Below are positions 2,501 to 18,390 of a stretch of DNA of 41,036 bases, in pieces. The translations under genes were made by a program, and so were the position numbers. Position 1 is the stretch's first letter. Each line of letters begins with the position of its first letter. The notes below the pieces were generated by a model, which was not told where the DNA came from, did no database searches, and saw nothing but the letters and a program-made list of their open reading frames with translations. The stretch is from assembly GCA_027065045.1 (NCBI GenBank), contig JAMOOX010000081.1:1-41036 (forward strand), read 5' to 3'. Origin of the DNA: Campylobacteraceae bacterium (GTDB taxonomy: Bacteria; Campylobacterota; Campylobacteria; Campylobacterales; Sulfurovaceae).

Positions 2501-3278
2501 ATGAAATTTGCAAACCCAACAAATGACTTAGCATTTAAAAAGATATTTTAATATCATTTTTAAATAGTGTCCTTGGATTTAAAGATAATAAAACAATTGT
2601 GGATATAACTCTATTAAATCCATATCAAGTCCCAAAGATAGAAGAGCTAAAAGAGACAACACTAGATATACAAGTAACTAACCAAAATAGTGAAAAATTT
2701 ATTGTAGAGATGCAAAAAAAAGATTTAGGAAATTTTGCAAAAAGAAGCTTATATTATACCTCAAAAGCTTATGTTGAACAACTTGATAAAGGACATAACT
2801 ACTCAAAGCTCAAAAAAGTATATTTTATAGGAATATTAAACTTTGATATGTTTGAAAATCAAAACTTTATATCAAGACATCTAATAATTAACCAAGAGAC
2901 TACAAAACAAGATATTGATGATTTTGAATTTACATTTATAGAGTTGAGTAAATTTAATAAAAAGTTAAATGAACTTGATACAACTTTGGATAAATGGATA
3001 TATTTTATAAAAAATGCCTCCAATTTTGATATGATACCAGCAGAGTACAAAGATATAGAAGAGTTTAAAAATGCTTTTGATATAGCTACTCAAACGAAAT
3101 GGAACAAAGATGAGATGAGACTTTATGACTATATGGGTTTAAGAGCTTATGATGAGATTAATGCATTAGAGACTGCTACTAGAAAAGGAATTGAAAAGGG
3201 AGAAAATAAAAAAGCAATAGAGATTGCCAAAAAACGGGTTTATCAATTGAAGATATAGATAAACTTAGAATGAATTAA
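2501..3278 (+). pseudogene. Rpn/PDDEXK_2-family nuclease (putative transposase), broken by two frameshifts
   Basis: An ATG at 2501 opens the family's N terminus (MKFANPTNDLAFKKIF), but the frame hits TAA at 2549-2551. The next frame resumes at about 2545 with ILISFLNSVLGFKDNK, so the usual linker of about 8 codons is missing and the frame has shifted. The body to about 3230 has the nuclease core TLDIQVTNQ..KFIVEMQKKD (D and ExQ positions), KWIYFIKNA and KGIEKGENKKAIEIAK. Near 3230 a second lesion shifts the frame: the expected tail TGLSIEDIDKLRMN is found in another frame and ends at TAA 3276-3278. Intact relatives are about 290 residues and promote RecA-independent recombination. The longest surviving open frame (2599-3258) lacks both ends and is probably not functional. 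Confidence 0.85.
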
Positions 3279-3282
3279 ATCT

Positions 3283-3342
3283 CCTCCTTTAATCGCTATT
3301 AAACAGAAATTGTGCTACAATTATACACAATTTATATTAAGG
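3283..3342. repeat. ~60 bp direct repeat, copy 2
   Basis: This is the second copy of the segment at 2433-2492, lying just after the pseudogene's original stop and just before the orphan gene at 3355. It keeps an SD-like CTCCTTT on its left edge, which reads AAAGGAG on the minus strand where there is now no gene. That suggests it derives from the ruvX upstream region. On the plus strand its TACAATTATACAC stretch may act as the -10 region of the orphan gene. Confidence 0.8.
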
Positions 3343-3354
3343 GCATTATGATTA

Positions 3355-3813
3355 ATGATAATAGAAACTAAGTTTAAGAAAGTTTTTTTAGAGATAGAGA
3401 GTTTGGAGAAAAAGATAAAAAATCAGGATTATAGAAGTTTTTTTAAATCTAATAAGTATAATATTGAATCGTTAATATCTAATATTAATTATAAAAATAT
3501 ATATAACTTTACAAGAGTAATTGGAGATAATATTTCTACTCTTTCTAGTAAAGGGCAGTTAAGTATGGAAGATGAAAAAGCTTATCGCCAAGAGAGAAGT
3601 AGAATAGATTATGAACTTCACCGTATTCATTTGATTATGGAAGAGGATAAAAGATTTTGGAAAAATAGTAGTGAGATATTTGATGAATTTCAAGAGAAGA
3701 TTATGAATAACCTACCATTTAATCCAAAATATACAATGTGGAAAGTAATTAAACGATTTTTCTCAAAATTATTTGGTAAGAAACCTATTTATTTAAAAGT
3801 AAAAAAAGGATAG
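3355..3813 (+). CDS. Hypothetical protein, 152 aa, not recognised
   Basis: The protein has no family that I recognise. It is charged and mostly helical by composition, without a signal peptide or membrane helix. Residues about 1-30 and 75-115 look like coiled or helical stretches ([33 protein letters not shown]), and the tail is strongly basic and aromatic ([16 protein letters not shown]), like a membrane- or nucleic-acid-binding amphipathic helix. AAGGG at 3339-3343 precedes the ATG by 11 bases; an ATG at 3348 is closed after seven codons, so 3355 is the only usable start. It lies 2 bases before nfo and directly after the second repeat copy, so it may belong to the same mobile patch as the nuclease pseudogene or to the nfo operon. 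Confidence 0.6.
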
Positions 3814-3815
3814 AT

Positions 3816-4703
3816 ATGAAATTTGTTGGAGCTCATGTGAGTAGTAGTGGAGGAGTATTTAATGCACCTTTAAATGCCAAAGAGATTGGGGCAAAAGCAT
3901 TTGCATTATTTACCAAAAATCAAAGACAGTGGAAATCAAAAGAGTTAGATAGCAAAACTATTGATAAGTTTAATCAAAATTTAGAAGATAGTGGGATTTT
4001 GGCTAAACATATTTTACCTCATGATAGTTATCTTATTAATCTTGGACACCTAGAAGAGGATAAGCTAATTAAATCAAGAGATGCTTTTATTGATGAGATT
4101 GAGAGATGTCATATTCTAGGGCTTGATAGACTCAATTTTCACCCAGGTAGTCATCTTGTAAAAATCTCTAAAAAAGCAGAGGATTACGAAGCTCAAATCA
4201 AACAAGCTGAAGATATATCACTTGATGTGGTAGCTATATCTATGAATTTAGCAATAGAGGCTACAAAAGATTTAGATGTAAAACTTGTAATAGAAAATAC
4301 AGCAGGGCAGGGTAGTAATTTGGGATATAAGTTTGAACATTTAGCCCATATTATAGATAAGATAGAGGATAAAAGTAGAGTAGGGGTATGTCTTGATACT
4401 TGTCATACCTTTACATCAGGATATGATTTACGCACAAGAGAGGCTTATGATAAAACTATGAGTGAGTTTGATAAGTTAGTAGGGTTTGAGTATCTAATGG
4501 GAATGCATATTAATGATTCCAAAGTAAAGCTTGGTTCAAGAGTAGATAGACACCACTCATTAGGAGAGGGTGAGATTGGTTGGGATTTGTTTAGCTTTAT
4601 TATGAATGATGATAGAATGGATGATATTCCATTAATATTAGAGACAATTAATAGTGATATATGGAAGCAAGAGATTGAGGCTTTATATAGGTTGGTAAAA
4701 TAG
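3816..4703 (+). CDS. nfo: Endonuclease IV (deoxyribonuclease IV, AP endonuclease)
   Basis: The 295-residue TIM-barrel enzyme has the usual Nfo length. It carries the zinc-binding motifs in order: [42 protein letters not shown] and the terminal [12 protein letters not shown] and ILETI. Nfo cleaves 5' of abasic sites and of some oxidised bases during base excision repair in the cytoplasm. Its stop TAG is immediately followed by the TTG start of the restriction endonuclease, with no spacer, so translation of the two is probably coupled. Confidence 0.96.
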
Positions 4704-5330
4704 TTGGAAGATATAACTCAAAAAATCAAAGAATTAGCTCAAAAATATTCTGATAATCTAAAATTAAAAATAGACAATAGAATGGAAGAGATGAGAGATG
4801 ATGATAAATCACACTATTTAATCTATCAGGTTTTAGGAATATCAGATGAAGAGGGTAGATTAATAGATTTATATCAAAATAAAGGACGGTTTTTATATAA
4901 ATATGCTGGTTCATTTTTAGAAGATGTTACAAAGTTATGTTTTTTAGAGGCTTTCCCAAATTCAGCAACAACTAAAATACCAAATACTCTAGGGGTTAGA
5001 CCAAAAACTTTTGAAATTGATTGTTTAGAGAGTAATAATGCTATTGAGATAAAATGGAGAGATGCTACAACAGATGGAGACCATATAACAAAAGAGCATA
5101 CTAGAATAGAGGTTATTAAAAAAGCAGGATATAAACCTATAAGAGTAATGTTCTATTATCCAAATAGAATACAAGCCAAAAAAATACAAAAAACTCTAGA
5201 AACTCTATATAGAGGTATTGGAGGAGAGTATTATTATGGTGATAGTGCTTGGAGATATATACAGCAAAGAACTAAAATTAATTTAAAATCTATCTTAGAA
5301 CAAATCGCTAGAGAGAATTTAGGAGTTTAA
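4704..5330 (+). CDS. Type II restriction endonuclease, ApaLI-like
   Basis: The 208-residue protein matches the ApaLI-type endonuclease family in my reading: KSHYLIYQVLGI..EEG and YQNKGRFLYKYAGSFLE near the N terminus, RPKTFEIDCLESNNAIEIKW in the core, and GDHITKEHTRIEVIKKAGYKPIRVMFYYPN afterwards. D106, E115 and K117 form a plausible PD-(D/E)XK catalytic set. ApaLI cuts GTGCAC; the target here is only inferred from the family. The start is TTG directly after the nfo stop; no ATG occurs before codon 27, and starting there would lose a conserved helix. The methyltransferase begins 4 bases after its stop. Confidence is high for a restriction enzyme and moderate for specificity. Confidence 0.85.
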   Translation: MEDITQKIKELAQKYSDNLKLKIDNRMEEMRDDDKSHYLIYQVLGISDEEGRLIDLYQNKGRFLYKYAGSFLEDVTKLCFLEAFPNSATTKIPNTLGVRPKTFEIDCLESNNAIEIKWRDATTDGDHITKEHTRIEVIKKAGYKPIRVMFYYPNRIQAKKIQKTLETLYRGIGGEYYYGDSAWRYIQQRTKINLKSILEQIARENLGV

Positions 5331-5334
5331 ATTG

Positions 5335-6525
5335 ATGGAAAAAGTTTTTTTAGGAGATTGTTTGGATATATTACCAACTATTGAAAATAATAGTATAGAT
5401 TTAATATATTTAGATCCACCATTTTTTACAAATAAAATTCAAAAACTTAAAACTAGAGATGGGAAAAGGGAGTTCTCTTATAGTGATATATGGGATAGTC
5501 ATCAAGAGTATGCTAAGTTTTTATATAATAGATTAATTGAGTTAAAAAGAGTATTAAAAGATGATGGGAGTATATTTGTCCATTGTGATAAAAACTCTAC
5601 TCATATAATAAAAGCTTTATTAGATGATATATTTGGAATAAAGCAGTTTCAATCTGAAATTATTTGGTATTATAAAAGATGGTCAAACTCCAAAAAAGGG
5701 CTATTACCATCTCATCAAACAATATATTTTTACTCTAAAACTAAGAATTTTAAATTTAAAAGATTATATAGTGATTATTCTAAAACAACTAATATTGACC
5801 AGATACTTCAAAAAAGAGTAAAAGATAAAAATGGTAAAACTATATATGCCAAAGATAAAAATGGAAATACAATAAATAGTGATATTAAAAGGGGTGTGCC
5901 ATTAAATGATGTATGGGAGATACCATATCTAAATCCAAAAGCCAAAGAGAGGGTAGGGTATCCAACTCAAAAACCTATACTATTATTAGAGAGAATTATA
6001 GAGATAGCTTCAAATCAAGATGATACTATTCTTGACCCATTTTGTGGAAGTGGGACAACATTAGTAGCAGGAAAATTAAATGATAGAAGAGTTATAGGTA
6101 TAGATATATCTCAAGAGGCAGTAGAATTAACAAAATCAAGATTAGCAAATCCTATTAAAAGTGAATCTAATTTACTAAAGAAAGGTAAAGAGGCTTATGA
6201 GAATGTGAGTAATTTAGTTGAAAAATTACTATATGATATTGATTATATTCCTGTCCAAAGAAATAGTAGTATAGATGCTATATTAAAAGAGAGTTATCAA
6301 AATAGTCCTATATTAATAAAAATTCAAAAAGAGAAAGAGACAATAGAAGAGTCAATTAAAAGATTAGAAAAAGCTGTTATCTCTAAAGGTTCAAAAAAAT
6401 CTTTTTTAATAAGAACAAATGATATAAAGTCTCTATTTGAATATAATAATATAAATAGTAGTATTGAGATTATAAATTCTACAACTTATGGATTAAAAGA
6501 GATTTTAAACAAAGGATTAATATGA
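5335..6525 (+). CDS. Type II DNA methyltransferase (beta class, N6-adenine or N4-cytosine)
   Basis: From ATG 5335 (AGGAG at 5321-5325 gives good spacing; a TTG one codon earlier is less likely) the protein has 396 residues. Catalytic motif IV DPPF is at 27-30 and the SAM-binding motif I DPFCGSGTT is at about 234-242; the order IV then I defines the beta class of amino-methyltransferases. The region between carries a family-typical insertion with a duplicated KDKNG peptide, probably part of target recognition. A C-terminal extension of about 100 residues (ESNLLKKGKEAYE...) follows the catalytic domain. It should protect host DNA from the upstream ApaLI-like nuclease. It overlaps the radical SAM gene by 4 bases (ATGA). 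Confidence 0.92.
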   Translation: MEKVFLGDCLDILPTIENNSIDLIYLDPPFFTNKIQKLKTRDGKREFSYSDIWDSHQEYAKFLYNRLIELKRVLKDDGSIFVHCDKNSTHIIKALLDDIFGIKQFQSEIIWYYKRWSNSKKGLLPSHQTIYFYSKTKNFKFKRLYSDYSKTTNIDQILQKRVKDKNGKTIYAKDKNGNTINSDIKRGVPLNDVWEIPYLNPKAKERVGYPTQKPILLLERIIEIASNQDDTILDPFCGSGTTLVAGKLNDRRVIGIDISQEAVELTKSRLANPIKSESNLLKKGKEAYENVSNLVEKLLYDIDYIPVQRNSSIDAILKESYQNSPILIKIQKEKETIEESIKRLEKAVISKGSKKSFLIRTNDIKSLFEYNNINSSIEIINSTTYGLKEILNKGLI

Positions 6526-7433
6526 AAAATATAATATTTGGCCCAATAAATTCAAGAAGGTTTGGAATATCATTAGGGATTGACCTTAGCCCTAATAAAA
6601 AACAGTGTAATTTTGATTGTTTGTATTGTGAATTAGATGCTAATAGAGTAGTAAAGAGTTTTGATGAGGTTTTAGAAGTAGGTGAGATTATAGAGGCACT
6701 TCAAGCTAGATTAAGTGATAATATAGATTTTATTACTATTACAGCCAATGGAGAACCAACTCTATATCCATATTTAGATACTCTAATAGATGAGATTGAT
6801 AAAATCAAAGGTGATACCAAAACTTTGATACTCTCTAATGCTAGTAAGATTAGTGATATTAATGTAGCTAAGGCATTGAGTAAAATTGATGTAGTTAAAT
6901 TATCATTAGATTGTATTGATAGTAGATGTCTTAAAAAACTTGATAGAGCAGAAAATAGTATAGATGTAGAAGATATAAAGCAAGGAATGCTAAATTTTGC
7001 TCAAATATATAAAAAAGATTTAATTATAGAGATTTTATTTGTAAAAACTATAAATGATAAAGATATAGATAAATATAGTGAATTTTTATTGGAGTTAAAT
7101 CCAAAGAGGGTTGATATTGGTACAATTGATAGACCACCTGCTTATGATGTGAAACCTCTCTCTTATGAAGAGTTGTTAGAACTTTCTCATAAATTTGATG
7201 TAAATTTACCTATTTATATATCATCTCGCAAAAATATTAGTAGCAAACCTACAAATTATACTATTGATGAGATATTAGCAACTTTAGCCAAAAGACCACT
7301 AAGTGATGATGATATAGATATTTTATTTGATAATAACTCTCAAAAAAGATTAAAAAAGCTATTAAAAGAGCAAAAAATAGAAAAAATTAAATTAAATTGC
7401 ATATTTTTTTATAAATTAGCGAAAAAGACTTGA
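6522..7433 (+). CDS. Radical SAM protein (wyosine-synthase-related COG0731-like)
   Basis: The 303-residue protein starts KNIIFGPINSRRFGISLGID and has a 4Fe-4S radical SAM motif CNFDCLYC (C29, C33, C36; CX3CX2C). ITANGEPTLYPYLDTLI is the GGE-like SAM-binding element, and the barrel continues with VVKLSLDCID. A C-terminal region after about residue 240 (DEILATLAKRPLSDDDI) looks like a small winged-helix domain. Related proteins are annotated as radical SAM enzymes of unknown substrate, distantly related to TYW1. It overlaps the methyltransferase start-to-stop by 4 bases. The -35 of the tRNA-Asn promoter overlaps its stop codon. Confidence 0.85.
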   Translation: MKNIIFGPINSRRFGISLGIDLSPNKKQCNFDCLYCELDANRVVKSFDEVLEVGEIIEALQARLSDNIDFITITANGEPTLYPYLDTLIDEIDKIKGDTKTLILSNASKISDINVAKALSKIDVVKLSLDCIDSRCLKKLDRAENSIDVEDIKQGMLNFAQIYKKDLIIEILFVKTINDKDIDKYSEFLLELNPKRVDIGTIDRPPAYDVKPLSYEELLELSHKFDVNLPIYISSRKNISSKPTNYTIDEILATLAKRPLSDDDIDILFDNNSQKRLKKLLKEQKIEKIKLNCIFFYKLAKKT

Positions 7434-7458
7434 CAAGAAAGTTTTTTTCAGCTATAAT
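7430..7458 (+). promoter_or_regulatory. Consensus sigma-70 promoter for tRNA-Asn
   Basis: TTGACA at 7430-7435 and TATAAT at 7453-7458 match both consensus hexamers exactly and are separated by 17 bases. The -35 box overlaps the TGA stop of the radical SAM gene at 7431-7433. Transcription should begin near 7465, about 35 bases before the mature tRNA. A full -35 is unusual in Campylobacterota, where most promoters rely on the -10 and periodic T tracts. Confidence 0.85.
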
Positions 7459-7499
7459 TCTGCCCACTAACAAGTAACAACAACTTGAAGGTCAAACAT

Positions 7500-7574
7500 T
7501 CCGGATTAGCTCAGCGGTAGAGTAGATGACTGTTAATCATTTGGTCGCTGGTTCGAATCCAGCATCCGGAGCCA
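7500..7574 (+). tRNA. tRNA-Asn (anticodon GTT)
   Basis: The acceptor stem is TCCGGAT (7500-7506) paired with ATCCGGA (7564-7570), followed by discriminator G and encoded CCA (7572-7574). The D arm has GCTCAGCGGTAGAG, the anticodon loop CTGTTAA puts GTT at 7532-7534, and the T arm contains GGTTCGAATCC. The gene is complete and monocistronic with a perfect promoter upstream. Confidence 0.97.
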
Positions 7575-7629
7575 CTTCAAAAAATCAAATTCATTTTTAA
7601 ATTTTCACCAATCAACTATTTTAATTTCA

Positions 7630-7684
7630 GTAATATTTTTTATCTATTTTTAAATTAAAAAGAAATTTATATAAAAAATAATAC
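7630..7684. repeat. AT-only inverted repeat in the tRNA-nir intergenic region
   Basis: GTAATATTTTTTAT (7630-7643) pairs with ATAAAAAATAATAC (7671-7684) with one mismatch in 14. The interior contains a smaller palindrome, TTTTTAAATTAAAAA. The element lies between tRNA-Asn and the cytochrome gene. It could end the tRNA transcript or shape the promoter region; with no G+C in the stem a terminator role is uncertain. Confidence 0.45.
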
Positions 7685-7686
7685 TA

Positions 7687-7707
7687 TTGATGTAAATTAA
7701 GTATAAT
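7687..7707 (+). promoter_or_regulatory. -10 element of the cytochrome c/nir operon with adjacent FNR-like half-sites
   Basis: TATAAT at 7702-7707 is the likely -10; the ribosome binding site GGAG (7747-7750) and ATG 7757 follow. Immediately upstream, TTGAT-GTAA-ATTAA (7687-7700) matches an FNR/CRP-family box (TTGAT-N4-ATCAA) with one mismatch. Its position next to the -10 is atypical for activation and would suit repression, so the regulatory reading is tentative. Confidence 0.45.
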
Positions 7708-7756
7708 ATGCCAAAGATATGATAATATTTTTTATTAATAATATTTGGAGTAAATA

Positions 7757-8050
7757 ATGCTAAAATATCTACTTGTAATAGTCTCTTTAATAAGTTTTGG
7801 GAGTGCTAATGATGTTTTTAAAACATATTGTTGGGGCTGTCATCATCAAAGTGCTGTAGCATTTGGTCCATCTTTTACTTATATTGCATCAAAGAGAAAT
7901 GCTGATGAGATAAAAGCTATGATAACCGACCCCAAAAGTGTATCTAAAGTCTTTGGATACAAAAGAAATGCAATGCCACCATTTAAGCTTACACAAGATG
8001 AGCTTAACTCTATCACACAATATATCCTATCATATAAAGGCAAAAATTAA
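7757..8050 (+). CDS. Small periplasmic c-type cytochrome (NirC/NirM-like)
   Basis: The 97-residue precursor has a signal peptide (about 1-17, ending GSA) and one heme-attachment motif CWGCH (C25, C28, H29). A methionine in RNAMPPF is the likely distal heme ligand, followed by the terminal class I cytochrome helix (TQDELNSITQYILSY). It is a mono-heme class I cytochrome c of about 9 kDa when mature. The neighbours nirJ, nirF and SUMT suggest it carries electrons for nitrite reductase or heme d1 maturation, like NirC or NirM; the exact equivalent cannot be decided from sequence. Its last base is the first base of nirJ (TAATG). Confidence 0.88.
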   Translation: MLKYLLVIVSLISFGSANDVFKTYCWGCHHQSAVAFGPSFTYIASKRNADEIKAMITDPKSVSKVFGYKRNAMPPFKLTQDELNSITQYILSYKGKN

Positions 8051-9177
8051 TGTTTAGATTATCTAATTTACTAAGTTCTGTAGTAGAAGAGAAAAAACCA
8101 CGCGTTTTAGATGGCAGTATAGCTATTTGGAACTTTACTAATCGTTGTAATTTATCATGTATGCACTGTTATTCCAAAGCTGATTTGGATTCAAAAGATG
8201 TGCTTTCAACTGAAAAGATTATGGATACTCTCCCTCGTCTTAAAAATAGTGGGGTAAAGTTTATAATATTTTCTGGTGGAGAACCTCTTACTAGAAAAGA
8301 CCTTTTTGATATAGCCCTTAGATGTAAAGAGCTTGGGATTGTTACTTATTTATCTACAAATGGGTTATATGTTACTAAATCTAATGCTCAAAAGATTATA
8401 GATACATTTAATTATGTAGGGGTTAGTATTGATGGGAGCGAAAAAACGCATGACCATTTTAGAGGTCTTAAAGGCTCATTTATAGAGTCTATGAAAGCTG
8501 TAAAATTACTTAATAGTTGTAGTGGTGCTAAGGTTGGGATTAGATTTACTATTACCAAAGAGACTTATGATGATTTGAAATTTATATTTGAGTTAGCAGA
8601 AAAAGAGAATATTCCCAAAATTTATATCTCTCATTTAGTCTATAGTGGTAGAGGGCTTGATAATCTTGAGATGGATTTGAGCAAAACTCAAAGACGAGAG
8701 GCTGTTGAGTTTATCATTGATAAGGCATTTGAGTATTATAATGATGGTAGAGATATTGAGATTGTAACTGGTAATATGGAACAAGATGCTATTTTATTTT
8801 TGGATAGATTTGCCAAAGAGTATCCAGCTCTTAAAGATGAGATGCAAGAGCGATTAGTATCATGGGGAGGAAATAGTGCAGGTAGAAAACTTCTTAATAT
8901 TGACTCTGTTGGGAATGTAAAGCCTGACCCATTTTTCCCAAAAGTTATAGGAAATATATTTGATAATGATTTTGAGGATATTTGGAGAGATAAACCAATT
9001 GAGCTTTTAGAAAAACTAAGAGTACACCCACGAAAGATTAGTGGTAAGTGTGAAGAGTGTGATTATATAGATATATGCAATGGTGGCTCACGAAGTAGGG
9101 CTTATGCGATATATGATGATATGTGGGCAGAAGACCCATCGTGTTATTTGAGTGATTTTGAGATTAAAAGAGGATAA
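8050..9177 (+). CDS. nirJ: Heme d1 biosynthesis radical SAM protein NirJ
   Basis: The 375-residue protein has the radical SAM cluster motif CNLSCMHC (C33, C37, C40) preceded by IAIWNFTNR, the SAM-binding FSGGEPLTRKDLF, and YVGVSIDG. The C-terminal part has the cysteine-rich SPASM-like end (CEECDYIDICNGGSRSRA ... WAEDPSCYL), which in NirJ binds a second Fe-S cluster. The family removes the propionate side chains of didecarboxysiroheme during heme d1 formation for cytochrome cd1 nitrite reductase. Elements such as VTGNMEQDA and LVSWGGNSAGRKLLNIDSVG are diagnostic of NirJ. It is cytoplasmic. NirF starts 3 bases after its stop. Confidence 0.93.
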   Translation: MFRLSNLLSSVVEEKKPRVLDGSIAIWNFTNRCNLSCMHCYSKADLDSKDVLSTEKIMDTLPRLKNSGVKFIIFSGGEPLTRKDLFDIALRCKELGIVTYLSTNGLYVTKSNAQKIIDTFNYVGVSIDGSEKTHDHFRGLKGSFIESMKAVKLLNSCSGAKVGIRFTITKETYDDLKFIFELAEKENIPKIYISHLVYSGRGLDNLEMDLSKTQRREAVEFIIDKAFEYYNDGRDIEIVTGNMEQDAILFLDRFAKEYPALKDEMQERLVSWGGNSAGRKLLNIDSVGNVKPDPFFPKVIGNIFDNDFEDIWRDKPIELLEKLRVHPRKISGKCEECDYIDICNGGSRSRAYAIYDDMWAEDPSCYLSDFEIKRG

Positions 9178-9180
9178 TTA

Positions 9181-10278
9181 ATGAAAAAAATAGTATATAG
9201 TTTGATAATGAGTGGGTTGCTTTTTGGTGGGACACCAAGCGTAGAAGAGAAGATTTTTGTAGTGGAGAGAGAGAGTGAGTCTATTGCTGTAATTAATAAA
9301 GGACTTACTAAGTCTCATATGAAAAATATGCATAATATGAACCATGGTGTTATAAAGTTTGATGGTAAAGATGGATATATCATTAGCCGTGATGGATATG
9401 TGATGAAGTTTGACCCAATTAGCGAAAAAATATTAGCAGAGTATAAGACAAGTAAATCAGCGATTGGATTTGTAATTGGTTCAAACTATGTAGCAGTGGC
9501 TAATTATGATGATAAATCTGTTGATATTCTCTCACGAGACCTTAAGCCAATTGATAAGATTGTAACTGGTTCAAAAAATGTAGGTATTAAAATATATAAA
9601 GATATGTTGATATTTGCACAAATGGATAGTGATAAGGTTACAGTTTTAAAAGATAAAAATTTTGGTAAAGAAGTGCCTAAATTTGAAATTTTCAAAGAGA
9701 TAAAAGTAGGTAAAATGCCTTTTGATGCGATGATAGAAAATGGTACATATATTGTTGGATTTTTCTTATCAAAATCATTTGGTGTAGTTGATTTAGATAG
9801 TATGGAGTATAAAGCTATAAAAGTAACAGCAGAGGGAAATAAACCAGTGCTTAAAGTACCTCATTTTGGTTTTTGGAGTCTAAGTGAAGATAAGACTTTT
9901 ATCCCAGCAGTTGGAGATAATAAGGTTCTTGTTTATGATAAAAAGTTTAATTTTATTAAAAATATAGAGGTTAAAGGACTTCCTGTTTTTACAGCTTTAT
10001 CTCCTAATAAAAAGTATATAGCCGTTACATTTTCAGGTAAAGATTTCCCAACTATTGAGATAATTGATACTACTACTTTAAAAGTATTTAAGCAATTTAC
10101 TTTTAAAGGTAAAGTTTTACATGTAAGATGGTCTAATATAGATAATTATCTTTATGTTTCAGTAAATGATGCTAATCAAGTTAATGTTATTAATACAGAT
10201 GAGTGGTTTTTAGAGAGAGAGATTTTTCAATTAAAAGCACCATCAGGAATATTTATATATAATCAAGGGAAAAAATAG
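9181..10278 (+). CDS. nirF: Heme d1 biosynthesis beta-propeller protein NirF
   Basis: The 365-residue protein begins with a hydrophobic export signal (about 1-18) and then a beta-propeller resembling the d1 domain of NirS. Conserved pieces are HMKNMHNMNHGVIKF, DGYIISRDGYV, KVPHFGFWSL and KAPSGIFIY. NirF is a periplasmic dehydrogenase-like protein thought to act late in heme d1 synthesis, forming the acrylate side chain; His residues in the N-terminal motif (H46, H51, H55) are candidate ligands. No Cys is available for a lipobox. The downstream SUMT gene overlaps its stop by one base (TAGTG), so nirJ-nirF-SUMT are co-transcribed. Confidence 0.92.
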   Translation: MKKIVYSLIMSGLLFGGTPSVEEKIFVVERESESIAVINKGLTKSHMKNMHNMNHGVIKFDGKDGYIISRDGYVMKFDPISEKILAEYKTSKSAIGFVIGSNYVAVANYDDKSVDILSRDLKPIDKIVTGSKNVGIKIYKDMLIFAQMDSDKVTVLKDKNFGKEVPKFEIFKEIKVGKMPFDAMIENGTYIVGFFLSKSFGVVDLDSMEYKAIKVTAEGNKPVLKVPHFGFWSLSEDKTFIPAVGDNKVLVYDKKFNFIKNIEVKGLPVFTALSPNKKYIAVTFSGKDFPTIEIIDTTTLKVFKQFTFKGKVLHVRWSNIDNYLYVSVNDANQVNVINTDEWFLEREIFQLKAPSGIFIYNQGKK

Positions 10279-11012
10279 TGAAAAATGTATATTTAACTGG
10301 GGCAGGGCCTGGAGATGTAGAGCTACTTACATTAAAAGCACATAGAGTAATTTGTGAAGCAGATGTAATTATATATGATAGATTAGCAAATCCAGAGATA
10401 TTAGAGATGTCAAAAGATGGTTGTGAGTTTATATATGTTGGCAAAGAAGATGGCAGACATAGTGTCCCACAAGATGAGATAAATAATATAATATATCAAA
10501 ATTCTCTTAAGCATAATATTGTAGTTAGGCTCAAAGGTGGAGACCCATTTGTATTTGGAAGAGGTGGTGAAGAGGCTCTATATTTATATAGTAAGGGGGT
10601 AGAGTTTGAGGTAATCCCAGGGATAACATCTGCTATATCAGCTCCTGCTTATGCAGGTATTCCTGTAACTCATCGTGGAATTGCTGTGAGTTTTAGAGTA
10701 GTTACTGGTCATGAATCACCAAATAAAAAAGAGTCTCAAATATCATGGGATAATTTTAAAACAGATGATACAATAGTATTTTTGATGGGGTTACATAATC
10801 TATCTAAAATAAGCTCTAAATTAATAGAAATTGGTAAATCAAAAGATTATCCTGTGGCTGTAATATCAAGAGGAACAACAAAAAAACAACAAGTCGTGGT
10901 CGGTACTCTAGAAAATATTGTAGATAAATCTAAAGGTATTCCTACTCCTGCTTTAATAGTTGTTGGACAAGTTGTATCATTAAGAGAGCAGTTGGAGTGG
11001 TTTAGAGGCTAA
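10278..11012 (+). CDS. cobA: Uroporphyrinogen-III C-methyltransferase (SUMT; NirE/CobA type)
   Basis: The 244-residue protein is a single-domain SUMT of normal length, without the CysG dehydrogenase part. Family motifs are YLTGAGPGDVELLTLKA near the N terminus, VIYDRL-like ADVIIYDRL, LKGGDPFVFGRGGEE, and VIPGITSAISAPAYAGIPVTHRG; the C terminus has VISRGTTKKQQ and PALIVVGQVV. It methylates uroporphyrinogen III twice to give precorrin-2, the first committed step to siroheme, cobalamin and heme d1. The start is GTG overlapping the nirF stop. Its place behind nirJ-nirF suggests it serves as NirE, but it could supply the whole cell. A new operon follows after 66 bases. Confidence 0.93.
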   Translation: MKNVYLTGAGPGDVELLTLKAHRVICEADVIIYDRLANPEILEMSKDGCEFIYVGKEDGRHSVPQDEINNIIYQNSLKHNIVVRLKGGDPFVFGRGGEEALYLYSKGVEFEVIPGITSAISAPAYAGIPVTHRGIAVSFRVVTGHESPNKKESQISWDNFKTDDTIVFLMGLHNLSKISSKLIEIGKSKDYPVAVISRGTTKKQQVVVGTLENIVDKSKGIPTPALIVVGQVVSLREQLEWFRG

Positions 11013-11039
11013 TTAATAGAAACCTTATGATTAAAATTA

Positions 11040-11045
11040 TATAAT
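11040..11045 (+). promoter_or_regulatory. -10 element of the kinase-like/FecR/cyclase operon
   Basis: TATAAT at 11040-11045 is followed by AAGGGG at 11068-11073 and ATG at 11079. No good -35 is visible, as is common in Campylobacterota. The downstream five genes have gaps of only 6-19 bases, so this is the likely promoter for the whole operon to 18390. Confidence 0.5.
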
Positions 11046-11078: not shown

Positions 11079-13583
11079 ATGAATAGAATACTTATACTAC
11101 TGATGCTTCTCTTATCAGTGGTATCATCAAGCAGTTTAAATAACAATTATATATCTTTGACATCTTATACTAATAAAGATAAAGCTATATTAGATAAAGA
11201 TGTTATAGATGATAGACTTAGTCGTAATTTAATTATTAGTAAGCTTAAAAATAAGTATGATTTTAAGATTACTGTTAATGAGAAAAACGCTCAATTTAAT
11301 GTATCACTTACAGACTTTACAAATAGTTCTATAATTCCAATTGTATATGATTTTCTTAAAGATGACTTTATTGATATATCTATGAAATATAATAGACCAA
11401 AAGAGGTAAAAGCATCTGATAAACTTATAGAGACTTTAGTAATTGGTTTTATACTATTTTTAATGATTTCTCTTGGGGGATATTCAATATCTAGAATATC
11501 TAAAAAGAAAAAAATAATAGAGAATAAATATAAAGTTCTTCATAATGATAAAATTAAACTTGAAAGTGAATTTGATAAAGTATTAAATAACTTAGGTTAT
11601 AAAATAGAGACATCTACTAATAGAATGATTAAAGCTAGAGATGAAATTATTGCAGAACCAATTGAAGAGTTTACAAAAGAGGTAATTGAAGAGAAGTTTC
11701 AATCAATTAAAAAAACAGATACAGTACTTACAGATACAACAAGTCAAATTATAGACTTTTTAAAAGCAAAATCTGGCAAACTAGAACTTAAAAAAGTAAA
11801 ATTTGATATTAATAAATTATTAGGTGCTATTACTACAAGGGCTTCTCAAAAGTATAAATCTAAAAATATAGAGTTGATTTATGATATTGATAAAGATGTC
11901 CCAAGATATATCTTAGGTGATTATGATAGATTAAGTAAAATTATTATAAATATGGTGGATAATGCAATTAAAAATACACAAAAAGGTAAAGTAAAATTAG
12001 TTATTACAACTTTTAAAGAGGAGAGTAGTAATAAGATAGAGTTTAAGGTAATAGATACTGGTATTGGAATTAAAGAGGATAAAATGGATAGTATCTTTAC
12101 CCCTTTCCAAAATGGTAGTTCTGTATTAAATGGAAGTGGAAATGGAAGTATTGGTTTATCTATGTCAAGAGAGTTAGTTAGCATAATGGGAGGTATCTTA
12201 AGTGTACGAAGTAAATATGATAAGGGAAGTACCTTTAGTATAAAAATCCCACTCATAACTGATGAAAGTTCAAAAGATGAGAAATCATATCATTTAGCAT
12301 GTGATAAATTATCAAAAGAGGAGTTATGTAGTAAAAATATTGGTATTATAGATAGTGATAGTGAATCTGCTTGGGCTATTAAAAATGCTTTTGCTCATTT
12401 TATAGATAGTATCACTATTATTCCAGAGTATGGAATTAAAGACCATGATATATTACATAAATGCGATATTATATATATAGATTATAAATTAGTAGATGCT
12501 TTAATGTTAGAGCTTTTCAAACAAATTCAAGCTAATAAAGATTTTAGAGTAGTTGTTACTAGTAATATATTAGAAGAGTATGATGAAGATATTAATAATA
12601 GTACAATTAGTCGTCATATTATGAAGCCATTTAGTCCTGCAAGAATATTAAAGATATTTTCTGATGAGTATAATTCTGTAAGAGTTGTGAGTAATCTTGA
12701 AGAGTTATTATTAATGGAAGAGGAAGAGGATACTATTGAAGATGAAGATATTTATGGACTCAAAAAATATAATGAGCCTATGCCAGAAACTAAAGGTGTA
12801 GATCAAGACTCATTAAGAGAGTTTTTTGGTTCTACTATTTTGATTGTAGAAGATGATAGATTAAATAGAAAAATACTTGAACGAATGTTAGAGAGTACAG
12901 GAATAAAATATGCAGTAGCTAGTAGTAGTGATGAGACCCTAGAACAACTGAAAAAATACTATAATAATTTTGATTTAATTTTGATGAATATAGCAATATC
13001 TAATATGACAGGATATACTTTGGCCAAAATGATAAGATATGATAAAAGCTTTGATAATATACCAATCTTAGCAATGGTTGATAAAAAAGATAAAGCAGTT
13101 GATTTAGCAGAAGCTGGTATAAATGGATATTTAATTAAACCTATTAAAATGGGTACTCTATATACTCTATGTGATAGATTTTTAGAAAAAGTAGATATAG
13201 AAAATAATAATATATTATCTAGGTTATCAAAAAGTGAGCATATATTAGATATTACAAGAGGTATAATGTTAGCTGATAATAATCAACAAAATTATATTAT
13301 GCTTTTAGAAGAGTTTGTAAATGCTTATGGTAGTAGTGGTGAAGATTTTGAAAGTTTAGTTATTAATAGAGAGTATGAAAAAGCAAAATTATTGGCAATA
13401 GATATGAAAGGTCTTACATCTATTATAGCAGCTAATAATATGAATATGCTAATTAGTGAAATAGAAAAAATCAATGTAAGTAAAGAGTATAAAAAACTTG
13501 ATAAATATATTGAGAGATATAGTGAAGAGTTAGATGATTTAGTAACTAATATAGAGATATATATAAGAAGTATAAATAGCTAA
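11079..13583 (+). CDS. Hybrid sensor kinase-like protein with degenerate phosphorelay sites
   Basis: The 834-residue protein has an N-terminal signal/anchor, a periplasmic part to about 115, a membrane helix at about 117-137, a coiled/DHp-like region (about 150-245), a HATPase_c domain (about 280-392), two receiver-like domains (about 420-530 and 585-705) and an HPt-like C terminus (about 715-834). The ATP site looks intact: NMVDNAIKN (291-299), DTGIGI (326-331) and a G2 region (355-365). There is no histidine anywhere between H155 and H405, so the DHp acceptor is absent. Receiver 1 keeps D468 and K516; receiver 2 has N637 where the Asp should be (ILMNIAIS). The HPt motif HxxKG reads IDMKG with I774. 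It probably acts as an ATP-binding scaffold or allosteric regulator rather than a classical kinase. It is the first gene of the FecR-cyclase operon. Confidence 0.88.
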   Translation: MNRILILLMLLLSVVSSSSLNNNYISLTSYTNKDKAILDKDVIDDRLSRNLIISKLKNKYDFKITVNEKNAQFNVSLTDFTNSSIIPIVYDFLKDDFIDISMKYNRPKEVKASDKLIETLVIGFILFLMISLGGYSISRISKKKKIIENKYKVLHNDKIKLESEFDKVLNNLGYKIETSTNRMIKARDEIIAEPIEEFTKEVIEEKFQSIKKTDTVLTDTTSQIIDFLKAKSGKLELKKVKFDINKLLGAITTRASQKYKSKNIELIYDIDKDVPRYILGDYDRLSKIIINMVDNAIKNTQKGKVKLVITTFKEESSNKIEFKVIDTGIGIKEDKMDSIFTPFQNGSSVLNGSGNGSIGLSMSRELVSIMGGILSVRSKYDKGSTFSIKIPLITDESSKDEKSYHLACDKLSKEELCSKNIGIIDSDSESAWAIKNAFAHFIDSITIIPEYGIKDHDILHKCDIIYIDYKLVDALMLELFKQIQANKDFRVVVTSNILEEYDEDINNSTISRHIMKPFSPARILKIFSDEYNSVRVVSNLEELLLMEEEEDTIEDEDIYGLKKYNEPMPETKGVDQDSLREFFGSTILIVEDDRLNRKILERMLESTGIKYAVASSSDETLEQLKKYYNNFDLILMNIAISNMTGYTLAKMIRYDKSFDNIPILAMVDKKDKAVDLAEAGINGYLIKPIKMGTLYTLCDRFLEKVDIENNNILSRLSKSEHILDITRGIMLADNNQQNYIMLLEEFVNAYGSSGEDFESLVINREYEKAKLLAIDMKGLTSIIAANNMNMLISEIEKINVSKEYKKLDKYIERYSEELDDLVTNIEIYIRSINS

Positions 13584-13596
13584 AAAAGGATAATGA

Positions 13597-14271
13597 ATGA
13601 TTAAAATATTTACTTTAATAATTTTGATGAGTGCTATGTTATTTGCTAATATAGGTACTATTATGGCACTTAAAGGTAGTGCTTCTATTCAAAGAAATGG
13701 CAGTGATATTAATGCTAAGGGTGGTATGAGTATATTAAATAGTGATATTATAAAAACATATAATAATAGTAGGATTCAAATAATTTTAAAAGATAATACA
13801 ACTTTAACTATTGGAGCAAACTCATCATTTGAATTTACAAAATTTTATTTTGATGGTACTTCAAATTCATCTTTGCATATGAAAGCAAATAGAGGATTTT
13901 TTAGAACAGTTACTGGAAAAATAGGTAAAATTGCACCAAAAAGGTTTAAACTTAAAACAATATCTGCCATAATAGGTGTAAGAGGTACTGATTTTAGTGG
14001 TGATATTATGGAAAATCGTGAGATAATCCGTTGTTATAGTGGTGCTATTAGCGTAGAGTTGGATAATGGAGGTATCAAAGATATTCTTTCAGGAATGCTT
14101 ATAGAGATAACTGATAAGAGTGTAAATATCAAAAGAAATATGAAAAATATGCCATTTGAAAAGGTTATGTATAAGAGTAAACTTGCACCACAAAGAGTTT
14201 CTGATATAACTCAAAGATTGGTAAAACCAGAAGATATACCTTGTAAACCTTATGAGGTGGAAGAGCAGTAG
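13597..14271 (+). CDS. Exported FecR-domain protein, paralogue 1
   Basis: The 224-residue protein has a signal peptide (about 1-17, MSAMLFA) and a FecR domain covering about 20-150: GTIMALKGSASIQRNG, LNSDIIKT, RIQIILKDNTTLTIGANS, and ISAIIGVRGTDFSG. It is very similar to the protein at 15566 (about two thirds identical by eye), sharing a lone cysteine in IIRCYSGAISVELD. The cytoplasmic anti-sigma helix and transmembrane segment of true FecR are missing, so it is a periplasmic or surface FecR-only protein, not a sigma-factor regulator. Residues 160-224 form a charged tail ending in KPYEVEEQ. It starts 13 bases after the kinase-like gene. Confidence 0.85.
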   Translation: MIKIFTLIILMSAMLFANIGTIMALKGSASIQRNGSDINAKGGMSILNSDIIKTYNNSRIQIILKDNTTLTIGANSSFEFTKFYFDGTSNSSLHMKANRGFFRTVTGKIGKIAPKRFKLKTISAIIGVRGTDFSGDIMENREIIRCYSGAISVELDNGGIKDILSGMLIEITDKSVNIKRNMKNMPFEKVMYKSKLAPQRVSDITQRLVKPEDIPCKPYEVEEQ

Positions 14272-14290
14272 GTAAGTTAAAGGAGTAATT

Positions 14291-15559
14291 ATGAGAGTGT
14301 TTTTTTTATTAGTATGTTTAAATATTTTTGTTATGGCAAGTACAACAAATGCCAAAAAAATGTATGAACATAAGAATTATTTGGGGGCTATTGAAGAGCT
14401 TAAAAAATCTACAAGTGAGTATGGTAATCCTCAACTTCATTTGATTTGGGCAAAGAGTGCAGAGGCTATTGGTAATAATATAGAGGCTATGAGTGCTTAT
14501 GAGAGGGTTTTGATGTTAGAACCATCTAATATTAAGGTAAAAAAAGCATTAGCTAAAGTCTATGTAAAACTTAAAAAGTTTAAATTAGCAAAAGCTATTA
14601 TTAATCAACTCAAAGAGGAAGACCTTGATTTTAAAGAGATTAAAATAATCAATGAAAAAGAGGTAGCTACACACTCTATTAAAGGTTCTGGTTCTTTTGC
14701 TGTTGGTTATGATGATAATATTAATATAAGTGCTGATAAGGATATATTAGATACCTATTATGGTACTACAGTTCACCCTAATGAGACATCAAGTATATTT
14801 TATAGAGCTACTGCAAATATAAAGTTTTTAAAAGAACTTACTTCTAATTGGTATCTCAAAGCATCATTACATGGATATTATAATGTTAATGGAAAAACTA
14901 ATCAATATAATATATTCTTATCTACTACAAGATTTGGAGCAGGGTATTATAAAGAGGGTAGTTATAATGTATATGTACCAGTAAGCTATAGTACACTTCA
15001 TTATCTTACTACTGATTTACTAAAGTTTTATAGTATATCTCCTCAAATTGATATATTTTTATCAAAAGATTTAATCTTAAGTTTAAACTCTAAATTTGAG
15101 AGAAAAAGCTTTTTGAATGCTGTAGATAAAAATAGAGATGAAACAAGCACTGCTATTGGTGCAACTCTTTATTATAAATTTGATAAAAACTTTCTATTTT
15201 TAGATACAGAGTATCAAAAATTTACATCTAATAGAATAGTACCAGATGATTTTGTAGATAGAGAGAGCATAACTGTAGTAGCAGGTGTAAATTATAGATT
15301 TACTGAAGATATTACAGGAAAATTCTCATATAAAGTAATATTTGGTGATTATGATGATGTTATATTTAATCCTGCAGGTACTCCAACAACAGAACTTAGA
15401 GATGATACATTCCATCAAATTAATCTTAAAGTTTCAAAGAGAATTACTAATAATTTAGAGGTTTTTGTAGAAGATGAATATACAAAAAATAGTAGTAACC
15501 ATATTCCAGCTGATTATGACAAAAATGTCTTTATGGTTGGAATTGGTTTGAAGTTTTAG
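14291..15559 (+). CDS. TPR plus outer-membrane beta-barrel protein
   Basis: The 422-residue protein has a signal peptide (about 1-16), three or so TPR-like helix pairs (about 18-115; AKKMYEHKNYLGAIEELKK, AMSAYERVLMLEPSNIKVKKA), a linker, and a C-terminal barrel (about 130-422) of alternating aromatic beta-strands ending in VGIGLKF, with the terminal Phe typical of BAM substrates. The layout resembles Slam-type (DUF560) translocons, TPR followed by a barrel of about 290 residues, but I cannot confirm that family. It sits between two FecR paralogues with 19- and 6-base gaps, so it is probably their outer-membrane partner. Confidence 0.82.
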   Translation: MRVFFLLVCLNIFVMASTTNAKKMYEHKNYLGAIEELKKSTSEYGNPQLHLIWAKSAEAIGNNIEAMSAYERVLMLEPSNIKVKKALAKVYVKLKKFKLAKAIINQLKEEDLDFKEIKIINEKEVATHSIKGSGSFAVGYDDNINISADKDILDTYYGTTVHPNETSSIFYRATANIKFLKELTSNWYLKASLHGYYNVNGKTNQYNIFLSTTRFGAGYYKEGSYNVYVPVSYSTLHYLTTDLLKFYSISPQIDIFLSKDLILSLNSKFERKSFLNAVDKNRDETSTAIGATLYYKFDKNFLFLDTEYQKFTSNRIVPDDFVDRESITVVAGVNYRFTEDITGKFSYKVIFGDYDDVIFNPAGTPTTELRDDTFHQINLKVSKRITNNLEVFVEDEYTKNSSNHIPADYDKNVFMVGIGLKF

Positions 15560-15565
15560 GAGTTT

Positions 15566-16249
15566 ATGATGTTGAAAATATTTAGTTTAATGATATTAAT
15601 GGGTGCATTTTTGTTTGCTAATATAGGTACTATTATGGCGATGAAAGGTAGTGCTTCTATAGATAGGTCAGGTAGGACTTTAAAAGCTAAGAGTGGAATG
15701 AGCATATTAAATGGTGATGAAGTTATCACACGAAATAGTAGTAGAGTACAAGTTATCTTAAAAGATAATACAACTTTAACTATTGGTGCAAATTCATCTT
15801 TTGAGTTTTCTAAATTCTATTTTGATGGTAGCAAAAAATCTAGCGTAAGATTAAAAGCTAAGAGAGGATTTTTTAGAGCAGTTACAGGTAAAATAGCCAA
15901 AATAGCACCAAAAAGATTTAAGGTAAAAACAGTATCTGCAACTATTGGAATTAGAGGAACTGATTTTAGTGGTAATATAATGGATAAAAGAGAGGTTATT
16001 AGATGTTATAGTGGGGCTATTAGTGTGAAGCTAGATAAAGGTGGAGTCAAAAACCTTTTAGCTGGAATGTTAATAGATATAACAGATAAAAATGTTGATA
16101 TTAAAAGTAATTTGAAATCTTTACCATTTGAAAAGGTAATTGATAGTGATGATATTGATGATATTACACCACCAAAAGATATAAATCATCGTTACGAACC
16201 AAGTCATAATAGTGAACCATATTATTATGACCAACCTTATAATTATTAA
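15566..16249 (+). CDS. Exported FecR-domain protein, paralogue 2, with Tyr/Pro-rich tail
   Basis: The 227-residue protein has a signal peptide (LMGAFLFA, about 1-18) and a FecR domain nearly parallel to paralogue 1: GTIMAMKGSASIDRSG, RVQVILKDNTTLTIGANS, VSATIGIRGTDFSG, and VIRCYSGAISVKLD. It differs in its C terminus: after PFEKVI it has an acidic run (DSDDIDDI) and a Tyr/Pro-rich tail ending EPYYYDQPYNY. The start may be ATG 15566 or the second ATG at 15569 (the protein begins MM). The pair flanking the barrel gene looks like a duplication of one ancestral gene followed by divergence of the tails. Confidence 0.85.
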   Translation: MMLKIFSLMILMGAFLFANIGTIMAMKGSASIDRSGRTLKAKSGMSILNGDEVITRNSSRVQVILKDNTTLTIGANSSFEFSKFYFDGSKKSSVRLKAKRGFFRAVTGKIAKIAPKRFKVKTVSATIGIRGTDFSGNIMDKREVIRCYSGAISVKLDKGGVKNLLAGMLIDITDKNVDIKSNLKSLPFEKVIDSDDIDDITPPKDINHRYEPSHNSEPYYYDQPYNY

Positions 16250-16260
16250 ATAGGATAGAT

Positions 16261-18390
16261 ATGCAACGAAGTCTTTTGAAATTTGTTATAGCTTTAATAT
16301 TAGCACTATTACTTTCGTGGGCATATCTATTTATTCCTCAATCATTTCAATCTATTGATAGTAGATTGAGGGATTTTCTATTTGTTATTCGTGGTGAGTT
16401 GCCCAAAAATAACAATGTTGTAATTGTAGATATTGATGAAAAAGCACTTGATAAGTTTGGTCAATGGCCATGGCAGAGAAATATTTTTGCAAATTTATTA
16501 TATAAACTTACAGAGGCAAAAGCAGGAATTATTGGTCTTGATGTTGTTTTTGCTGAACCTGATGGAACTTCCCCACATATATTTGCCAAAAGATTTCCAG
16601 AACTCAAAGATAAATTAGAGAATTATGATGAGTATTTAGCTACATCTTTTTCTAAAACTCCAGTAGTTGGTGGTTATACATTTTTATTTGAAAATGCCAA
16701 AGAGGATAGAACACCCAATATCCCAGCTACATTTATAGAAAAAGGATTGTCTCAAAATGTATCTATTTTGCGACCAAAAGGAATAGCACTAAATATTGAT
16801 ATATTGCAAAATTCACTATATTCTAGTGGGTTTTTTAATAATATTCCAGACCTTGGAGGAATGATAAGACATGTACCTCTAATTATGAAATATAAAGATG
16901 TGATATATCCATCTTTGGCATTAGAGATGATTAGAATATATCAAAGTGAAAATATAGTTGAGATTAATGGTGATGATATTGCTATTGATAATATTAAAAT
17001 AGGTGATTTGAAAATTCCTACTGATAAAGAGGGTAGAATTGTATTAAATCCAAGAGGTCCACAACGACACTTTAAATATATTAGTATAGCCGATATATTC
17101 AATGGTACTTTTAATCCCAAAGATATTGAGGGAAAATTTGTCTTAATTGGAACTTCTGCTATGGGACTAATGGATTTAAGGGCAACTTCATTTGATAATA
17201 GTATGCCAGGGGTTGAAGTCCATGCCACTGTAATTGATAATATTCTAACAGGAGATATTTTACAAAAAAGTGTAGAGGCTAGAGTTTATGATTTGATAAT
17301 TATTTGGTTAATAATATTTATTATGGTTATGTTATTTTCATTAGTATCATCATTACTTATTATTCCACTAGCTTTGATTATAAGTTATATACTATTTAAA
17401 ATATTTTTTATTTCATTATTTACTTATGGTATGGTATTAAATTTACTTTTCCCACTATTATCATTTATATTTGCAATGTTTGTATCTATTATAGTTGATT
17501 ATATTATATCTTCTAAAAGAGAACAAGATGCTAAAAGAATGCTTGGAAAAAAGGTATCTCCTGCTGTGATGGATTATCTTTTAGAGAATTCAAAAGATGA
17601 TTTGATTAAATCAAAAGAGGTAGAGGCTACAATATTTTTTAGTGATATTCGCTCATTTACAACCATTTCAGAAAAGATTGGCTCACCAGATAGATTAATT
17701 ACAATGCTTAATCGTTATATGACACCAATGGTAGATAATATTATTCATCATAAAGGTACTATTGATAAATTTATTGGTGATGCTATTATGGCATATTGGA
17801 ATGCCCCATTAGAGATAAAAAATCATACAGATATGGCATTAAATAGTGCTATAGAACAGATTGAGATGTTAGCATCTATTAATAGTGAGATTACACCTGA
17901 ATATGATGTAAATATTAATATAGGGATAGGTATTCATACAGGATTAGTAACAGCTGGAGATATGGGTGCAAAGGGTCGTTCTGATTATACAATTATTGGT
18001 GATAATGTAAATTTAGCTTCACGATTAGAGGGACTCACCAAGCAGTATGGGGCAAATATATTAATCTCTAAAGCATCTTATGATAGATTAACACAAGAGT
18101 ATAAAATTCGTCCAATAGACCTAGTAGAGGTAAAGGGTAAGAGTAAAGCAGTAGAGATTTATGAAATAATATGTAATAATAAAGATATATCAATTAATGA
18201 GATAGATGAGTATAGTGAGGCTATTAAGTACTATAGAGAGGGTAGAGTAGATGATGCTCTTATAATATTTGATAAACTACAAAACTCTAATCCATCTCTA
18301 TTGTATGAAGTTTATCAAAAAAGATGTAGCTATTTTATAGATAATAGTGATATAGAGTTTAATCCTATATTGAAAATGACTACAAAGTAG
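16261..18390 (+). CDS. CHASE2-domain adenylate cyclase
   Basis: The 709-residue membrane protein has an N-terminal helix (about 8-25), a large periplasmic CHASE2 sensor (about 30-335; VVIVDIDEKALDKFGQWPW, GLDVVFAEP, VLIGTSAMGLMDLRATS, MPGVEVHATVIDNIL), three membrane helices (about 342-415), and a class III cyclase domain (about 453-637). Metal ligands D462 (FFSDIRSF) and D507 (FIGDAIM), the adenine-specifying pair K503 and T577 (DYTIIGD), and N584/R588 (NLASRLE) are all present, so it should make cAMP. A short TPR-like tail follows (AIKYYREGRVDDALIIFDKL). It ends the five-gene operon with the FecR and barrel genes, suggesting periplasmic signals from them reach the CHASE2 domain. Confidence 0.92.
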   Translation: MQRSLLKFVIALILALLLSWAYLFIPQSFQSIDSRLRDFLFVIRGELPKNNNVVIVDIDEKALDKFGQWPWQRNIFANLLYKLTEAKAGIIGLDVVFAEPDGTSPHIFAKRFPELKDKLENYDEYLATSFSKTPVVGGYTFLFENAKEDRTPNIPATFIEKGLSQNVSILRPKGIALNIDILQNSLYSSGFFNNIPDLGGMIRHVPLIMKYKDVIYPSLALEMIRIYQSENIVEINGDDIAIDNIKIGDLKIPTDKEGRIVLNPRGPQRHFKYISIADIFNGTFNPKDIEGKFVLIGTSAMGLMDLRATSFDNSMPGVEVHATVIDNILTGDILQKSVEARVYDLIIIWLIIFIMVMLFSLVSSLLIIPLALIISYILFKIFFISLFTYGMVLNLLFPLLSFIFAMFVSIIVDYIISSKREQDAKRMLGKKVSPAVMDYLLENSKDDLIKSKEVEATIFFSDIRSFTTISEKIGSPDRLITMLNRYMTPMVDNIIHHKGTIDKFIGDAIMAYWNAPLEIKNHTDMALNSAIEQIEMLASINSEITPEYDVNINIGIGIHTGLVTAGDMGAKGRSDYTIIGDNVNLASRLEGLTKQYGANILISKASYDRLTQEYKIRPIDLVEVKGKSKAVEIYEIICNNKDISINEIDEYSEAIKYYREGRVDDALIIFDKLQNSNPSLLYEVYQKRCSYFIDNSDIEFNPILKMTTK

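Follow-up and report, generated by a model that had tools for sequence, protein, structure and literature searches.

Few inputs are known for the common receptor domain CHASE2. Clusters in which an adenylate cyclase is encoded together with a phosphodiesterase (PDE), FecR and TPR proteins have been described in Campylobacterota as a predicted pathway, and most, though not all, Campylobacterota cyclases lie in such a cluster (PMC9239204, mBio 2022). In S. meliloti, the cyclase CyaK depends on the outer-membrane protein NsrA for its activation; PMC9239204, citing the NsrA paper, refers to a model of a transmembrane cAMP enzyme inhibited by ECF modules. An exported FecR protein is also paired with a CHASE2 receptor in the Burkholderia BiofilmReg operon, which encodes a LysM-FecR protein and a CHASE2 histidine kinase (PMC5192318). 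Proteins of the Slam/DUF560 type (type XI secretion, TXISS) combine N-terminal TPRs with a 14-strand barrel, and a C-terminal eight-stranded barrel of the TbpB_B_D type is characteristic of type XI secretion cargo, with FecR not mentioned (PMC8406197).

We analyzed a 41,036-nucleotide stretch of DNA (hereafter the window), which is contig C81 of a genome of 2.06 Mb in 164 contigs. Five genes on the same strand encode a hybrid pseudokinase (PK), a first FecR protein (FecR1), a TPR-barrel protein, a second FecR protein (FecR2), and a CHASE2 cyclase, with intergenic spacings of 13, 19, 6, and 11 bases (Table 1). This agrees with the preliminary description, which listed five genes with gaps of 6-19 bases, and the domains that it named for each of them were recovered by Pfam. 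The flanking genes encode a CobA-type methylase and RlpA (Pfam). A candidate promoter upstream of the PK gene scored 10/12 against a sigma-70-like consensus, in a region crowded with such matches (90, vs 68 expected). A profile search of the whole genome detected a single CHASE2 gene, and FecR-domain genes number two genome-wide; as all of these lie inside the cluster, a chance grouping is excluded.

Table 1. Features of the cluster in the window
Feature	Position	Strand	Size	Basis
Hybrid pseudokinase (PK)	11079..13583	+	834 aa	ORF call and Pfam
FecR1, exported FecR-domain protein	13597..14271	+	224 aa	ORF call and Pfam
TPR + outer-membrane barrel protein	14291..15559	+	422 aa	AF2 model, homologues over PF04575 cut-off
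FecR2, exported FecR-domain protein	15566..16249	+	227 aa	Pfam, conserved gene order
CHASE2-domain class III adenylate cyclase	16261..18390	+	709 aa	Pfam, residue conservation
Candidate sigma-70-like promoter TAGAAA-17-TATAAT	11017..11045	+		Consensus match only

Conservation of this arrangement was assessed at the CHASE2 cyclase loci of Campylobacterales whose flanks were long enough, 38 in total. FecR was encoded near 25 of them, barrel and FecR together near 17, and a class-II cAMP PDE near 22, and 11 had none of these partners. The barrel-FecR-cyclase order was found in genera of family f1 and in family f16. Further cases of the barrel/FecR/cyclase type were present outside the order in Nitrincola and a Desulfobacterium, and genes for FecR, TPR, cyclase, and MBL-fold hydrolase proteins occur together on an Ensifer plasmid. 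On that plasmid (Ensifer sp. PDNC004, L246), they adjoin NHLP bacteriocin export genes. Distances were correlated for the cyclase-barrel pair (r=0.83, n=37), the FecR-barrel pair (r=0.88, n=35), and the cyclase-PDE pair (r=0.79, n=40), values to which shared species history contributes; the value for cyclase and FecR was undefined.

The five-gene set, which had been proposed as a candidate new system, did not hold up in the search of relatives. The full order was not conserved: PK adjoins the cyclase in this genome only, with its homologues sited away from the cyclase in all four genus relatives and near the CHASE2 cyclase at none of the 38 loci, and FecR1 is lineage-specific. In one genus relative (G161), the barrel-FecR-cyclase order is present without PK. 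As in the published clusters (PMC9239204), the CHASE2 cyclase lies beside FecR- and TPR-domain genes. Those clusters include a PDE, whereas the class-II cAMP PDE of this genome (PDEase_II-GAF-HD) is encoded outside the cluster, on contig C162; the window differs further in having a second FecR copy and PK, and in a TPR protein modelled as a 14-stranded Slam-like barrel. The novelty claimed for the five genes together found no support: the core had already been described for Campylobacterota (PMC9239204), PK is a local addition, and the second FecR copy is lineage-specific. We conclude that the signalling operon is real and well conserved, that its type has been described before as a prediction, and that a species-specific variant of it is present here.

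The cyclase matched CHASE2 (4e-61) and Guanylate_cyc (9e-25) in Pfam. Residues D462, K503, D507, T577, N584, and R588, which we take to be the catalytic set of class III cyclases, are unchanged in relatives with as little as 46% identity. Judged by this alignment, the catalytic residues of the CHASE2 cyclase are intact, as the preliminary description had stated. A second class III cyclase, a putative adenylate cyclase, is encoded elsewhere in the genome (L249:2101-3891, G000:C56); it has a PDC-like sensor and no CHASE2, which would be at odds with the published statement that all Campylobacterota adenylate cyclases carry CHASE2.

Both FecR proteins have an N-terminal hydrophobic segment followed by a FecR domain (Pfam E-values of 1.1e-10 and 3.6e-13) and no further transmembrane (TM) segment, in line with their earlier reading as exported, FecR-only proteins. 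A PDB search with a FecR query gave weak anti-sigma and antifreeze matches and nothing stronger. A classical FecI/FecR/FecA system was considered and rejected. In that system FecR has a cytoplasmic anti-sigma part and an internal TM segment, both missing from the window proteins, and an ECF sigma factor and a TonB receptor adjoin it, neither of which is found next to this cluster. FecR1 and FecR2 share 68% amino acid and 77% DNA identity and are sisters in the tree (85/92), whereas FecR1 of the relatives falls on another branch. This indicates that FecR1 is a lineage-specific or converted copy and that this lineage has a cluster remodelled at its 5' end; FecR2 is the copy that occupies the conserved barrel-FecR-cyclase order.

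The TPR protein, previously described as an outer-membrane barrel, retains that status as a prediction. Its AF2 model (pLDDT 82.8) has TPR helices at the N-terminus followed by 14 strands, as in Slam proteins. In Pfam, the window protein had a TPR match and a weak barrel match, with BBP2_2 sub-threshold, and did not reach the gathering cut-off of PF04575 (SlipAM, Slam). That cut-off was exceeded by its homologues L043 and L136 (36-37% identity) and by L141, L031, and L181. The link to Slam rests on Pfam and the strand count, because Foldseek with the barrel model returned generic porins at low TM scores.

These features allow a reading in which the barrel functions as a Slam/type XI translocon that carries the FecR proteins to the cell surface as cargo, with the cyclase either monitoring export, through FecR left in the periplasm, or merely regulated alongside. 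The model and the homologues above the cut-off are consistent with it, as is TbpB_B_D, the cargo-type C-terminal barrel of TXISS, which Pfam detected in 13 of 34 FecR proteins of sister clusters. We nevertheless consider it unlikely: the window barrel lacks a PF04575 match, its own FecR proteins lack TbpB_B_D, and the substrate exported by some PF04575 relatives, PgaA among them, is polysaccharide (PMC8406197). Linkage to a cyclase is a further difference from Slam systems. Two loci from the same family as the window genome also argue against it. In a direct scan of L139 (6626-7732) and L140 (7314-8390), a fusion of FecR to an OmpA-type barrel was found directly upstream of a CHASE2 cyclase that is 48-49% identical to the window cyclase, and no TPR-barrel was found near the cyclase at either locus. 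Such a natural fusion suggests that anchoring FecR to the outer membrane is at least one task of the barrel.

In an extended version, which seems quite improbable to us, the sensor consists of a Slam-like translocon together with its FecR cargo. FecR export versus periplasmic retention would set the CHASE2 cyclase, so that the state of secretion or of the outer membrane would be read as cAMP, and the phospho-dead hybrid kinase would have been added in this species as a cytoplasmic scaffold. If true, such a sensor would be comparable in logic to RcsF surveillance. The Slam-type link does raise the possibility that the signal lies in how FecR is handled at the outer membrane.

The S. meliloti system offers a comparison for a receptor operon. 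CyaK is SMb20776, and since this species has only three CHASE2 cyclases, we took the pSymB CHASE2 cyclase to be CyaK. The gene overlapping the start of its coding sequence encodes a 1219-aa fusion with a signal peptide, a FecR domain (85-179), TPRs (397-606), and a long C-terminal barrel-like region, and is taken to be the putative NsrA. FecR, TPR, and barrel-like parts thus lie directly upstream of a CHASE2 cyclase, as in the window, although there they form a single protein with a larger C-terminal region and here they are separate genes with a 14-strand barrel. In hhalign comparisons with the window proteins, the FecR and TPR parts aligned; the barrel-like C-terminal region did not align with the window barrel. 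The window cluster looks like a split form of this fusion. In the Burkholderia BiofilmReg operon (PMC5192318), the output is through the histidine kinase and a response regulator and there is no barrel, whereas the window has a cyclase and a barrel.

On balance, we regard it as probable that the cluster is an envelope-to-cAMP receptor operon of the Campylobacterota type. Of the envelope-to-cAMP signalling suggested in the preliminary description, the part involving FecR, the barrel, and the CHASE2 cyclase is plausible and finds good support in the conserved clustering, the fusions, and the NsrA/CyaK precedent, but PK is not part of the conserved set. In the receptor operon, the outer-membrane TPR-barrel would hold or handle exported FecR through its periplasmic TPRs. 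The FecR proteins would touch the periplasmic CHASE2 domain and keep the cyclase off or tune its activity, which fits the published NsrA working model. A cue from outside would alter the barrel-FecR contact and release the cyclase to make cAMP, and the C162 PDE with GAF-HD domains would reset the signal. Beyond the parts, clustering, conservation, and fusions observed here, we infer the FecR-CHASE2 contact, the direction of control, and the cue. The FecR-barrel fusion at the same place upstream of the cyclase, the genome's own PDE and ion channel (see below), and the S. meliloti precedent make this reading plausible. Against it stand the 11 loci with no partner gene nearby, the lack of alignment between the window barrel and the barrel-like region in S. 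meliloti, and the S. meliloti FecR protein SMc02177. SMc02177, encoded near CyaD1, is a Clr/cAMP target and is dispensable for perception of the plant signal. It would also fit FecR and the barrel being outputs of cAMP signalling or envelope housekeeping proteins and not inputs to the cyclase; we think this rather unlikely in view of the tight gene order with the cyclase and the requirement of CyaK for NsrA. A conserved set in which FecR either has a TPR-barrel gene next to it or is joined in one protein to an outer-membrane barrel offers a direct way to test whether FecR and CHASE2 meet across the periplasm. The parts that merit attention are the Slam-like barrel and its FecR partners, the FecR-barrel fusion that takes its place, and the family of phospho-dead kinases.

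PK was described earlier as a membrane-anchored degenerate phosphorelay protein, and its layout confirmed this. An N-terminal hydrophobic segment and a periplasmic part are followed by a TM segment (~116-134), DHp, HATPase, a degenerate REC1, REC2, and an Hpt-like bundle; Pfam detected HATPase_c and Response_reg. The structure model (pLDDT 77.6) has a two-helix DHp, a HATPase, two receiver folds, and a helical bundle. In place of the phosphorylated residues of a hybrid histidine kinase phosphorelay, PK has Tyr174 at the DHp His site (PDB alignment to RetS), Asn637 at the REC2 Asp site, and Ile774 at the Hpt His site. The ATP-site motifs look intact (N box DNAIKNT, DTGIG, GSIGLS), and Asp468 of REC1 is kept. 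For the Hpt-like tail, a PDB sequence search gave nothing usable and the Pfam Hpt match was weak; its His site was fixed by alignment to canonical Hpt homologues, with His in eight canonical Hpt domains from the same order.

PK belongs to a group of Sulfurovaceae hybrid pseudokinases of ~650-880 aa (the window PK, L076-L100, and L144-L150). Among its 33 aligned members, the DHp His site is Glu in 24, Tyr in 6, Gln in 2, Asp in 1, and His in none, and the Hpt His is missing in all. The loss of both phospho-histidines is therefore an old family trait and not a feature of the cluster. The REC2 site is Asn in PK and three genus relatives and Asp in the other 29; the REC1 site is variable across the family, and the N box is eroded in most members. 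The group may comprise reversed-flow sensors of phosphorylation. The closest folds to the PK model were ShkA and RetS, and DivL also matched. DivL is a known pseudokinase with Tyr in place of His. Unlike these kinases, PK has also lost the Hpt His and the REC2 Asp, and it has a periplasmic part.

The distribution of PK homologues suggests that PK is a recent neighbour of the cluster, a local addition whose link to the pathway is putative. It is quite likely a passenger that landed upstream and has no part in the cyclase pathway, which is compatible with a receptor operon; its best homologues lie elsewhere in the genus relatives, it is absent from the 38 loci, and the cluster has been remodelled at its 5' end. 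A point on the other side is that the 13-base gap to FecR1, together with a plausible ribosome site, makes co-transcription likely. If linked to the pathway, PK would work like DivL, as a scaffold that does not phosphorylate.

A CRP-type cAMP effector, suggested at the outset, was not evident, nor was a Clr-like effector as in S. meliloti. Three proteins with a cNMP-binding domain are encoded in the genome. The cAMP-binding Arg motif was not found in either of its two Crp/Fnr proteins, and the canonical GE...RTA cassette is present solely in an ion channel encoded on contig C4 (L151:1441-2529, G000:C4). This K+ channel is of the cyclic-nucleotide-gated type, with Ion_trans and a TVGYGD filter, and is the best candidate effector in this genome, a lead drawn from its motifs. 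Within the family, it is full-length solely in this genus, and it was rejected as a general output of such clusters.

Two gene groups lie upstream of the cluster in the window. Positions 6522-11012 encode radical SAM, SPASM radical SAM, cytochrome d1-type propeller, and uroporphyrinogen methylase proteins and resemble a heme d1 (nir) biosynthesis cluster. Positions 2599-6525 carry genes for a PDDEXK_2 transposase-family protein, a xylose-isomerase-like TIM barrel protein, and an N6/N4 DNA methylase, with a tRNA gene downstream of them at 7500-7571.
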